The position numbers and the translations under genes were made by a program. From Wenyingzhuangia heitensis (GTDB taxonomy: Bacteria > Bacteroidota > Bacteroidia > Flavobacteriales > Flavobacteriaceae): a stretch of 64,000 bases of DNA. Shown here piece after piece: positions 45,913 through 59,597 of this stretch. How positions within the stretch are numbered: position 1 is the first letter of the stretch; every line of letters begins with the position of its first letter. The DNA is taken from assembly GCF_011762155.1 (NCBI RefSeq), contig NZ_JAASQL010000003.1, forward strand, positions 1 to 64,000, given 5' to 3'. The notes beneath the pieces were generated by a model, which was given only the letters and a program-made list of their open reading frames with translations, was not told the origin of the DNA and did no database searches.

Positions 45913-46620
45913 TTATTCTTTTGTGTTGTAACAATATTGATACAAGGCTCCAAAATGAATTTTCATTTTTTCTTTAGCCAGCTGTGTATCTTGTTTTTGG
46001 ATGGCTTCAAAAATTTCCTGATGTTCTGTAATTCCTTTTTGAGCCTGCCCCTTATCACATACGTGATACTTTTCAAAATCTGTAATGATTTTTGGAGTAA
46101 TCATTAACATAAATGTGTTCATGGTACTGTTACCGCTAGCTTTAGCAATTGCTAAATGAAACAACAAATCTTCTTGTACTGCATTTTCACAATTCAGCAC
46201 CTTTTCTTTATAAGCTTCTAAAGCATTTTTAATACTCTCTAAATCTGCTTCAGATCTTCTTTGAGCAGCCAATCTCACTGTTTTTAGTTCAAATAAAATT
46301 CTGGTTTCTACCAAAGCTCTAAAGTCTGGATCTCCCAAAGCTAAAATATCGTCAATCATTCCATTCATAGCTACTTGGCCAATGTCTGCAACAAAAGTTC
46401 CACTTTGTGGTTTAGATTTTAACAAACCATAAAATTCTAACAACTGTATAGCTTCTCTTATATTACTTCTGCTCACTTCAAACTTTTCAGACAACATTCT
46501 TTCTGAAGGCAATTTGTCTCCTGGTTCTAAGTTTTTAAGATTTATTAAATCTCTTAACTTGGCTATAATCTGATTTTGAGTAGTTTGGTGATCTCCTTTT
46601 AACAATACTTCTAACTTCAT
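45913..46620 (-). CDS. FadR-subfamily GntR regulator of the alginate locus
   Basis: 235 residues. The N-terminal winged helix has LEPGDKLPSERMLSEKFEVSRSNIREAIQLLEFYGLL (residues 32-68). The C-terminal FCD domain is all-helical with likely metal or ligand residues in DLLFHLAIAKASGN and GITEHQEIFEAI. Regulators of this kind sense uronate breakdown products and release DNA. It has a TTGGTTAACCAA palindrome 20 bp before its start codon, so self-control is likely, and the same motif lies before susC and the PL6 gene. Confidence 0.9.
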   Translation of the reverse strand: MKLEVLLKGDHQTTQNQIIAKLRDLINLKNLEPGDKLPSERMLSEKFEVSRSNIREAIQLLEFYGLLKSKPQSGTFVADIGQVAMNGMIDDILALGDPDFRALVETRILFELKTVRLAAQRRSEADLESIKNALEAYKEKVLNCENAVQEDLLFHLAIAKASGNSTMNTFMLMITPKIITDFEKYHVCDKGQAQKGITEHQEIFEAIQKQDTQLAKEKMKIHFGALYQYCYNTKE

Positions 46621-50967: not shown

Positions 50968-53900
50968 TTAGAAATCTAGATTTAAACCGAAAGAAATTGT
51001 TCTGTAAATTGGAGAACCTGCTCTTTGGTAACCATAGTTTGTTGGACTTGTTCTATCAATAGATTCTGGATTGAATCCTGTATAATTATCAGCAGTTAGA
51101 TATACTAAGTTTTGACCTGTTGCATATACTCTTAACCCTTCAATTTTATACTTTGATAAGAAATCTTTTGGAAAATTATATCCAATATTTACGTTACGTA
51201 ATGCTAAGTAAGAAGCATCTTGAATAATATCATCTGTAAATATTTTTTGTTTGATGAACTCTTGATCTGGAGTGCTTGCTATAAAATCTTGTGCACTGTT
51301 AAACTGGTTAAAAATATATTGATCTCCCATGTTTCTGATTTCTGCACCATGTGATCCTTGAATCATAAAACTTAAATCTACTTGTCCTACTTTAAACTCG
51401 TTGGTAATACTCCAAACCAATTCTGGATATGGATCTCCTAATGCAGCTTTATCTTCATCATCAATAATACCATCACCATTTAAATCTTTTACATATACAT
51501 CTTGAGCTTCTCCTCCAATAGGATGGAATGGATTTGCTAAATATTCTTGCGGAATATCTTTATCTACTACCCATCCGTAAAAAGTTGAAATAGGTTGTCC
51601 TTCTAAGTTGATCCATTCAGCAGCTCTTTTAGAATCTACACTAGATATTTGACCATCTGAATCAGCAAAGTCTACTAAAGTGTTTTTGTTTGTTGTTGCA
51701 ATTAATGTTGAATTCCAACTAAACTTTTCTGTAGAAACATTTTTAGTTCTTAATTCAAATTCCCAACCTTCGTTTTTAACCTCTCCTAAGTTTACCAAAG
51801 CACTTTCAAAACCAGTGGTATAAGATACTGGGTTGTTTAATAATAATTGGTCACTTGTTCTTTGGTACCAGTCAATAGATCCTGTAATTCTGTTGTTTAA
51901 CAATCCAAAATCAATTCCTGGGTTAATTTCTACCAAACGCTCCCACTTTAATTCAGGGTTTGCAATGTTTAATGGAGCAAAACCTGTAGTAATAGCACCA
52001 TCTACAACCGCAGTGTTTGCTTGTAACAACGCTAAAGAAGGATAGTAATCTACCAACACATTACCTGTACTTAAACTACTTGTACTACTACTTACATCTG
52101 GATCTACACTACCTGTATTTAAACGGTCGTTACCTGTAACCCCATAACTAGTTCTTACTTTTAATCTGTTGATGATGTTGTTATCCTCCATAAAATCTTC
52201 ATTAGAGATATTCCATCCTACAGAAGCCGCTGGAAAGTTACCAAACTTGTATTCTGATCCAAAGATTGAACTACCATCACGTCTAAAGCTAAAAGAAGCT
52301 AAGTACTTATCATCATATGCATAATTGAATCTAGACACGTAAGAGATTCCTCTTTTTTGCCATTCAAAAGCATCTGCTCCACTAATAATAGAAGCGTTCG
52401 TAATTTCTTTTACCAAATCATTGGTATATCCTGTTCCTGAAATAGAAGAGAAAGAAAAGTTTCTAGATTCTACCACCACACCGGCAGTTGCTCCAATTTC
52501 GTGAGCCTCATCAATTGTTGTATTGTAGTTAAAAAAGTTATCAGAAATAAGGTACAATTCTCTCTGAGAAATCTCATTCATTTGAGCTGCAGAAGCCCCG
52601 TTTCTGTTAGACTCTGTTCCTTGCCATCTGGCACGTTTTGTATCTTGATAAGAACCTGATAACGTAGTCTTAAAGTTCAATCCTTTTAAAATATTATAGC
52701 TTCCGTAAACGCTACCAAACATTTTAAATTTATCATCTGTACGTTCACGCTCTAAAATTTTAGCAGCAGGGTTGGCATTAGATGTATTACTAATATCTAC
52801 CAACGTGCTTCCGTCTCCATACAAATCATAATTGTCAAAATGACGTTGGAATGCATAATCTCCAATTTGCACATCAGGATATACTCCTCTGTCTACATAC
52901 TGAATTGTGTTATCATCATGATACACTGGCAACCAATTGGTTTGTCTTAAAATATCGTGTGTAGAACCATCAAAACGTCTTCTTTTTGTAAATGATGGAC
53001 TTAAATTTACCCCCACAGAAAACTGATCGTTTAATTTACTATCTACTTTTAATCTTAAACCATATCTTTTAAAGTTGTCTGTTAACAAGACTCCTTCATC
53101 ATCAGAATAGTTGATACTGGTTGCATATTTTGTTTTTTTGTTACCACCTCTAACAGATAAAGAGTGACTTTTAATGGTTCCTCCATCAAAAATAACATCT
53201 TGCCAAGAACGGTCAACCCCCACTAACTGCTTGTACTTTGTTCTGTCAGAAAGATAAACTCCTCCATTTTCTGCTCTGTGTCCTAATGCTGCAAAGGCTG
53301 CAGGATCATTAGCTTCTAAAGCTTGGTAATATGCAGTTTCTGCTGCTGCAGTTTCTGCTATAGAAAATTCGTATTTATCACTCTTTCTAGCTTCTTTGAA
53401 ACCAATGTATGAGTTGTAACTAATTTTTGTTTTCCCCACAACACCATCTTTCATGGTAATCATAATTACACCGTTAGAACCTTTAGAACCATAAATAGAA
53501 GAAGAAGCTGCATCTTTTAAAATTTCAAAAGAAGCCACATCGTTCATGTTTAAAGATCCTAAAAAGTCTGAATCTACGATTACACCATCTACCACTACTA
53601 AAGGAGTAGAGTCTCCAGACATAGAACCTACACCACGAATATTAATGGTTGGAGCTGCTCCTGCTTCTCCATCTGTAGCTTGAATGTTTACCCCGGATAC
53701 TTGACCGATTAAAGCATCATCTACCCTAGACACTGCTATTTGATCTAATTTTTCGTTAGATACTTTTGAAATTGCCCCTGTTAAGTGTGATTTTTTTTGA
53801 GTACCATAACCCACAATTACAATCTCATCTAATTGAGCTGAACTCTCATCTAATTGTGTTGTTATTTTTATATCATCTCCTACCGAAATCGTTTTCGTTT

Positions 53901-54138
53901 CGTAACCAATAAAAGAAATCTCTAAAACATCTCCCTTTTTAACGTTTAATTGATAATTACCGTCAAAATCTGAAATAGTTCCTTTAGAAGATCCTTTTAT
54001 AACCACCGTAGCTCCAGGTATTGGCACACCGTCTGTACTAGACAAAACAATTCCTGTCAGATTAAACTGCTCTTGAGCAAAAACAGCAATATTAAAAACC
54101 AATAGGGCTGTTAGTGTTAAAATTTTCTTTAGTTCCAT
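50968..54138 (-). CDS. SusC/RagA-family TonB-dependent receptor
   Basis: 1056 residues. Signal peptide 1-21 (ends VFAQ), a carboxypeptidase-regulatory-like domain (about 25-100, TGIVLSSTDGVPIPGATVVIKGS), a TonB-dependent plug (about 112-225, VGYGTQKKSHLTGAISKV, then PLVVVDGVIVD), and a large beta barrel that ends YRTISFGLNLDF with a terminal Phe. It imports alginate oligosaccharides with TonB energy. It is the first gene of the outer-membrane operon. Its leader is about 310 nt. Confidence 0.96.
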   Translation of the reverse strand: MELKKILTLTALLVFNIAVFAQEQFNLTGIVLSSTDGVPIPGATVVIKGSSKGTISDFDGNYQLNVKKGDVLEISFIGYETKTISVGDDIKITTQLDESSAQLDEIVIVGYGTQKKSHLTGAISKVSNEKLDQIAVSRVDDALIGQVSGVNIQATDGEAGAAPTINIRGVGSMSGDSTPLVVVDGVIVDSDFLGSLNMNDVASFEILKDAASSSIYGSKGSNGVIMITMKDGVVGKTKISYNSYIGFKEARKSDKYEFSIAETAAAETAYYQALEANDPAAFAALGHRAENGGVYLSDRTKYKQLVGVDRSWQDVIFDGGTIKSHSLSVRGGNKKTKYATSINYSDDEGVLLTDNFKRYGLRLKVDSKLNDQFSVGVNLSPSFTKRRRFDGSTHDILRQTNWLPVYHDDNTIQYVDRGVYPDVQIGDYAFQRHFDNYDLYGDGSTLVDISNTSNANPAAKILERERTDDKFKMFGSVYGSYNILKGLNFKTTLSGSYQDTKRARWQGTESNRNGASAAQMNEISQRELYLISDNFFNYNTTIDEAHEIGATAGVVVESRNFSFSSISGTGYTNDLVKEITNASIISGADAFEWQKRGISYVSRFNYAYDDKYLASFSFRRDGSSIFGSEYKFGNFPAASVGWNISNEDFMEDNNIINRLKVRTSYGVTGNDRLNTGSVDPDVSSSTSSLSTGNVLVDYYPSLALLQANTAVVDGAITTGFAPLNIANPELKWERLVEINPGIDFGLLNNRITGSIDWYQRTSDQLLLNNPVSYTTGFESALVNLGEVKNEGWEFELRTKNVSTEKFSWNSTLIATTNKNTLVDFADSDGQISSVDSKRAAEWINLEGQPISTFYGWVVDKDIPQEYLANPFHPIGGEAQDVYVKDLNGDGIIDDEDKAALGDPYPELVWSITNEFKVGQVDLSFMIQGSHGAEIRNMGDQYIFNQFNSAQDFIASTPDQEFIKQKIFTDDIIQDASYLALRNVNIGYNFPKDFLSKYKIEGLRVYATGQNLVYLTADNYTGFNPESIDRTSPTNYGYQRAGSPIYRTISFGLNLDF

Positions 54139-54272
54139 TTGTGTTAGTATTAAGTTAATTAATCATAATTTTTGGGGCTTTGCTTGAGATGATACCTTCA
54201 ATTTTTAATTGCTATTTCTTCTCTCCCCATTTAACACACCACACATTAATAAAAATGATTACTTTTGTAAAA

Positions 54273-54370
54273 GTGTGTTAAACTACTGTTTGCATACTTT
54301 AGATCTTACTTCCCTTGAGAATGAAGTAATTTCCCTTTTAAAGGATGGGCGTGCACCCATCCTTTTTTTT
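54273..54370 (+). ncRNA. Candidate antisense small RNA to the susC leader
   Basis: On the plus strand, opposite the leader of the leftward susC transcript, there is a -7-like TACTTTTG (54260-54267), then a hairpin TTACTTC / GAAGTAA (54306-54329), then a strong intrinsic terminator (54340-54370). The RNA would be about 98 nt. Layout, strand and length are those of the DonS-type antisense RNAs described for Bacteroides PULs. No good TTG is seen at -33, so the promoter is the weak point. No expression evidence exists here. Confidence 0.5.
54340..54370 (+). terminator. Intrinsic terminator in the susC leader, plus strand
   Basis: Stem AAAGGATGGG / CCCATCCTTT with the loop CGTGCA, followed by T to 54370. 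The T run is on the plus strand only; on the minus strand the hairpin is followed by TAAAAGGG. It therefore ends a rightward RNA, although no rightward gene is upstream. Confidence 0.85.
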
Positions 54371-54435
54371 ATTCCAAAAATTTATTTCATATATAATTCA
54401 TTAATTTTTAAGATTAGAAATAGGCTTAGCTTCAA

Positions 54436-54488
54436 TTGGTTTACCAGTTTGGTTTACCAAATATATAGAATTAAAACATTATTAACAA
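54436..54488 (-). promoter_or_regulatory. susC promoter with tandem candidate operators
   Basis: On the minus strand, TTG (54488-54486), a 20 bp spacer and TATATTTG (54465-54458) form a full Bacteroidota promoter. Two units, TTGGTTTACCAG (54436-54447) and TTGGTTTACCAA (54449-54460), overlap the -7 box and the expected start about 54451. A FadR-type protein bound there would stop initiation. The distance to the susC ATG is about 310 bp, most of which is non-coding. Confidence 0.75.
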
Positions 54489-54593
54489 CTAATAATGTGA
54501 TTTATTACGAAAAAACCAAAAAAAAACACATACCGGTAGGTATGTGCTATTTTACATTGTCTTTTTTTAATAAAAAAGTATAACTACATTGAT

Positions 54594-59567: not shown

Positions 59568-59597
59568 TTGGTTTACCAAATTGGTTTACCAAATATA
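59568..59597 (-). promoter_or_regulatory. Promoter and tandem candidate operators of the PL6-PL17-kdgF operon
   Basis: Two perfect TTGGTTTACCAA units (59568-59579 and 59581-59592), 13 bp apart start to start, with a minus-strand -7 box TATATTTG (59597-59590) overlapping the second. The ATG follows only 12 bp after the first unit, so the leader is about 27 nt. No clear TTG is seen at -33. Confidence 0.72.

Follow-up and report, generated by a model that had tools for sequence, protein, structure and literature searches.

A predicted DonS-type antisense small RNA in the susC leader of a flavobacterial alginate-lyase locus

Cis-antisense RNAs of the CopA/CopT plasmid type carry stem-loops and face a structured leader. 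In Bacteroides, DonS is described in two reports as belonging to a family of cis-antisense RNAs, 78-128 nt long, that are encoded divergently to susC and lower its expression (PMC7366714, PMC10994844). The same reports mention ten more DonS-type RNAs in B. thetaiotaomicron, and later 32, with negative and positive correlations (PMC7366714, PMC10994844); the positive correlation of some of them with their PUL counts against repression (PMC10994844). A transcriptome paper on Flavobacterium psychrophilum refers to 15 loci of this kind in B. fragilis and calls its own list a starting point for flavobacteria (PMC9723704). It also describes Rfp18 of this species, a flavobacterial small RNA that is conserved, has several stem-loops and is linked to proteases (PMC9723704). 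The FopS small RNAs of B. thetaiotaomicron repress susC translation; they comprise 14 paralogous RNAs, which bind several PULs close to the start codon (PMC11697453). In the literature that we searched, with subscription papers mostly outside its reach, we found no description of such an antisense RNA at a flavobacterial PUL, in line with the first-pass annotation of this DNA, which knew of no such case at a flavobacterial alginate locus.

Here, we analysed a stretch of 64,000 nt from Wenyingzhuangia heitensis (the window), in which a predicted RNA of ~99 nt lies antisense to a susC leader. Compared by description, it looks like a DonS-type RNA in place, size and orientation. Like DonS of B. 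fragilis and B. thetaiotaomicron, it would be short and divergent from a susC homologue, and its predicted length falls within the 78-128 nt described, as proposed earlier. At 27 related loci the predicted lengths are 72-103 nt, 4 of them below 78 nt. A susC homologue leader lies opposite the element in 78 of 80 loci, and a GntR/FCD regulator gene in the other two. An own promoter and an intrinsic terminator, a criterion of our own that the two cited reports do not appear to treat as defining, are recognizable in the sequence. Unlike the DonS set, the window RNA belongs to one homologous covarying family, tied to alginate-lyase loci with tandem operator-like repeats. With FopS and GibS it shares being a small RNA connected to susC; a genome with the present element usually has a single strong copy, which faces its own leader. 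Stem-loops against a structured leader recall CopA/CopT, where loop contacts could likewise start pairing, whereas the window RNA is chromosomal, is tied to a sugar-uptake operon and has a palindromic GUGCAC loop. The likeness to Rfp18, again by description, lies in being a conserved flavobacterial small RNA with multiple stem-loops; Rfp18 differs by its protease link.

The susC gene, of the TonB-dependent receptor type, occupies 50968-54138 on the minus strand. According to Pfam, its neighbours encode SusD, an Alginate_lyase2 protein, a GntR/FCD regulator (45913-46620, minus strand), a cupin, a heparinase/alginate-lyase protein and a chondroitinase-B-type protein; the PL labels used here are our interpretation of Pfam (PL6 for Chondroitinas_B, PL7 for Alginate_lyase2, PL17 for Hepar_II_III_C with Alginate_lyase). 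Because of these lyase genes, alginate is the presumed substrate. Two operator-like repeats, TTGGTTTACCAG and TTGGTTTACCAA, lie at 54436-54447 and 54449-54460, and the susC -7 box, TATATTTG at 54465-54458 on the minus strand, is fused to the second repeat. The susC leader would thus be ~314 nt long, which agrees with the claim of a promoter with operators about 310 bp upstream of the ATG. Judging from the sequence, the GntR/FCD regulator likely binds the repeats and represses the locus. The same two operator-like repeats in tandem, again joined to a -7 box, recur at 59568-59596, just before the PL6-type gene and its operon. Just before the susC promoter there is a leftward intrinsic terminator (54525-54548, minus strand), which probably ends an operon whose last gene encodes the cupin.

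The predicted antisense RNA extends from 54272 to 54370 on the plus strand, its start being placed from a -7 box and its end from a T run. The box, TACTTTTG of the TAnnTTTG type, lies at 54260-54267. Lying at -12 to -5, it corresponds to the flavobacterial consensus given in the F. psychrophilum paper (PMC9723704). With this box, the RNA would start near 54272 and measure ~99 nt, about the 98 nt expected from the first-pass annotation. Three hairpins can be drawn in it. The 5' hairpin H1 (54273-54297, plus strand) is variable in sequence and covaries; its folding energy of -8.1 kcal/mol is equalled by 1 of 200 shuffles. The middle hairpin H2 (54306-54329, plus strand) has a TTACTTC/GAAGTAA stem and a conserved CTTCCC segment running from the stem into the loop; taken by itself its stability is within chance (16 of 200 shuffles equal it). 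Hairpin H3 and its T run form an intrinsic terminator (54340-54370, plus strand), with AAAGGATGGGCGTGCACCCATCCTTT at 54340-54365 forming 10 pairs, the palindromic GUGCAC at the loop and the T run reaching 54370. It folds at -15.1 kcal/mol, which none of 200 shuffles equalled, and the segment 54273-54372 as a whole folds at -29.2 kcal/mol (z -4.95).

The terminator scan gave no opposite-strand terminator at the position of H3, in agreement with the earlier remark that its T run works only rightward. No other rightward gene reads into H3 among the open reading frames around the element: the only rightward frame of at least 90 aa nearby (54209-54583, TTG start, 124 aa) spans the element and seems to be there by chance. 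With Rfam release 15 at gathering thresholds, only a tRNA was found in the window and nothing at this locus. Under relaxed thresholds the best weak match at the locus was STnc390, at 23.6 bits against a gathering threshold of 50, and we rejected membership of this or any other Rfam family as not credible. By position, the whole predicted RNA is a perfect complement of the central part of the ~314-nt susC leader.

Absence of the terminator from related loci had been named beforehand as a refuting result. We surveyed the leaders of the 30 best SusC matches (54-100% identity) from 299 family genomes, and the scan found a rightward terminator in 25 of them; the refuting result thus did not occur. 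Variant forms occur in two more: L037 has, by eye, a hairpin with seven T and a different H2 stem, and L041 has an imperfect hairpin and an unclear -7 box. The complete element is absent from the remaining three leaders (L020, L022 and L028), L020 retaining a partial stretch that resembles H2. In G242, the genome of L028, a copy of the element is retained at a second SusC gene (L114). In L032, L033 and L037 the terminator loop reads CUGCAA instead of CGUGCA, with the UGCA core unchanged. On the promoter side, the TAnnTTTG box was present in 65 of 80 loci, the conservation of the letters inside it following from the pattern chosen. No conserved -33 element was found for the antisense promoter over the 80 loci, all positions from -40 to -13 reaching at most 0.39 bits, in agreement with the missing -33 element noted for the window.

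A covariance model covering H2 and H3 was then built on 25 sequences. In 397 family genomes it gave 79 matches of at least 45 bits in 77 genomes, followed by a tail of weak matches, so that the distribution was split. Searches at the scale of the phylum (395 genomes) and the class (295 genomes), both including the family itself and both under stricter filters that lose weak matches, gave, among the matches listed, none above 36 bits and none at E 1e-5, respectively, outside the family. A pattern scan of named genomes yielded at least 115 matching stretches; the matches listed include 80 named records with more than 30 genus names, among them Zobellia, Maribacter, Kordia, Cellulophaga, Aquimarina, Robiginitalea, Arenibacter and Wenyingzhuangia. 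Two of these 80 records, titled Cytophaga sp. FL35 and Bacteroidia bacterium, speak against a strict family limit, as far as titles tell. A strong copy is present in 4 of the 7 Wenyingzhuangia genomes. The genome of the window has no second one: a single DNA match was found, and the further model matches reach at most 34 bits.

Covarying stems were examined in two alignments. Alignment A1 comprises 27 of the 30 leaders, those without the complete element (L020, L022, L028) being left out; the model alignment A3 further omits L032, L033, L034, L037 and L041 and adds L003, L004 and L005. For the 25 chosen sequences of A3, pairing holds in 98.4% of stem cells, both sides have changed in 7 of 18 pairs, and none of 500 shuffles was as high. 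In all 27 rows of A1, 95.2% of stem cells are paired and 6 of 17 pairs show both-side changes; one of five covariation measures, that of further pair types, was no higher than in shuffles (337 of 500). These shuffles ignore the relatedness of the sequences, and a parsimony count on the SusC tree of 27 sequences served as a tree-aware check: it requires at least 9 changes at pair 91/105 and at least 5 at the neighbouring pair 92/104, every one of them giving a pair that is legal on the plus strand. H1 is too variable to align, so it was tested by permutation. In a first set of 80 loci, the one used below for placement, H1 arms from the same locus scored 12.78 against 10.23 (sd 0.26) for swapped arms (z 9.7). 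The second set consisted of 80 distinct loci drawn from 155, 59 of them from the first set and 21 named; here z was 11.0, and the right-flank control was not clean (z 4.1), probably because the flank contains palindromic repeats.

The mispairs tell the strands apart, since an A-C cell on the plus strand would be G-U on the other. Among 270 terminator cells, G-U on the plus strand outnumbers A-C by 18:1, with 9 other mispairs. For H1 the ratio is 50:1 in both sets, with 35 other mispairs within the picked helices of the second set. From these ratios, the folded product is most likely the antisense RNA rather than the mRNA. The AT-rich region offers many chance hairpins and low-scoring model matches are common, so a chance hairpin or functionless relic might come to mind; this explanation is contradicted by the comparison, in which the element is conserved and covaries across 77 of 397 family genomes, and we give it practically no weight. 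The antisense small RNA in the susC leader claimed by the first-pass annotation is thus strongly supported as a real gene by family-wide conservation and strand-specific covariation; the interpretation as a whole is supported in part.

The placement of the element was compared over 80 loci, a set that consists of the matches of at least 45 bits without that of G186 and with G001 and G005 added. In 78 of them a SusC gene starts on the opposite strand 23-200 nt away. Leader lengths across this set are rough, each being counted from the longest frame at its first start codon. These SusC homologues share 33-100% identity with that of the window, 40 of them at least 50%. At two loci (L055 and L059) and at one weaker match (L146, 41.2 bits), a GntR/FCD regulator gene replaces susC opposite the element, 416-478 nt away. 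Beside 16 weaker matches examined (33-42.5 bits), SusC was found in 7 cases, a regulator in 1 and neither in 8. A susC-type -7 box fused to CCA (CCAAAnnTA) is present in all 80 loci, 31-225 nt past the end of the model match. Homologues of the three alginate-lyase-type genes of the window occur in 60 of the 80 named pieces listed (up to 8 kb each), and other locus genes in the remaining 20. The element suggests antisense control of SusC-type uptake beyond gut Bacteroides, as part of alginate loci of marine Flavobacteriaceae.

CTTCCC is kept in 74 of 80 loci and GUGCAC in 58, counts inflated by the selection of loci with a model built from such sequences, while SusC identity drops to 33% and H1 drifts. 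Their retention beyond what plain cis-pairing needs hints at a protein or a trans partner, and the gene might merely be located in the susC leader, its C-rich H2 or its H3 loop binding other mRNAs or a protein. We consider such a trans-acting RNA rather unlikely. Elsewhere in the fetched pieces of 77 loci, 2 sites of 9 bases complementary to the H2 segment were found, where shuffled probes would predict 9.5, and a free trans-acting RNA would not need to stay in leaders with the fused -7 box, as the element does in 80 of 80. In the window, seven sites complement 8 bases of the H2 segment.

The reading that we consider probable is a small-RNA gene with its own promoter, encoding a three-hairpin RNA of ~99 nt that would repress susC as a cis-antisense RNA. 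Its anatomy, conservation, covarying strand and link to a promoter type are read from the sequence; its expression, its pairing in the cell, the repression itself, the role of the regulator and alginate as substrate are what we infer. The RNA would be transcribed from a housekeeping-type promoter (TAnnTTTG) against the susC leader, and transcription would stop at the terminator, short of the susC promoter and the operator-like repeats. It would probably be made at a steady rate, because no -33 element is conserved and the repeats lie beyond the terminator. Without alginate, it could pair with the few leaky susC leaders and lower their translation or stability; upon release of the GntR/FCD regulator, the susC transcript would exceed the antisense RNA in number. 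The outcome would be a threshold and a tight off state. Pairing may be started by loop contacts through GUGCAC, which is palindromic and present in both RNAs; the CTTCCC and GUGCAC segments may serve this purpose or may bind a protein. Direct blocking of the ribosome is not obvious, because the antisense region in the window lies more than 100 nt from the susC start codon. The covariance model, precise mutations and named strains of Zobellia, Maribacter, Kordia, Cellulophaga, Aquimarina and Wenyingzhuangia allow these proposals to be tested. Since the two promoters are convergent, and the susC -7 box follows the match at a distance of 31-225 nt at every one of the 80 loci, what matters might instead be rightward transcription toward the susC promoter and its stop, and not the RNA product. 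We regard such transcriptional interference as improbable, as the H1 and H2 folds and the kept segments would then be superfluous.

A second fold is predicted on the mRNA strand. In the susC leader, a hairpin at 54230-54282 on the minus strand would join arm A (54230-54239) to arm B (54273-54282) and enclose the antisense promoter; the segment 54225-54290 of this strand folds at -17.8 kcal/mol, equalled by none of 200 shuffles. Arm A precedes the antisense -7 box and complements the initial bases of the RNA (B); the two arms pair better within than between loci (z 10.3 and 11.0 in the two sets). Unlike those of H1, the A-B cells lean to the mRNA strand, with G-U:A-C ratios of 5:11 and 4:10. 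No pairing signal was seen between arm A and the 3' half of H1 (z 0.2 and -0.6). The predicted folds of the second set contain A'-B' in 58 of 80 mRNA segments. H1 appears in 69 of 80 antisense RNAs and, on the mRNA side, in 5 of 80; A-B appears in 29 of 80 plus-strand folds when the upstream arm is included. Because the H1, A-B and A-start helices were each selected for the best Watson-Crick match, the folds are biased towards containing them. Both the A-B statistics and the A'-B' counts would suit a cis-acting, riboswitch-like structure of the susC mRNA leader, with the plus-strand features incidental. This seems very unlikely to us given that changes in H1 (50:1) and the terminator (18:1) suit the plus strand, that H1 is so rare in mRNA folds, and that the T run and the -7 box serve the plus strand. 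A-B could also be a DNA palindrome read by a protein.

Combining these observations with the antisense RNA, we tentatively consider a folding switch on two strands, possible though doubtful, in which evolution would have tuned complementary transcripts to different folds. H1 (B-C) would form in the antisense RNA and A'-B' in the leader, and antisense pairing would strip B', free A' and reset the leader. Selection would then favour one fold in the sense RNA and another in the antisense RNA, an unusual situation. Pairing of arm A with the translation start gave a weak signal (z 2.5 in 59 loci), and we rejected it as a general rule. It is evident in L003, L004 and L005, all from Wenyingzhuangia, and, by eye, in the window; in this genus, the freed A' could pair with bases just upstream of the start codon.
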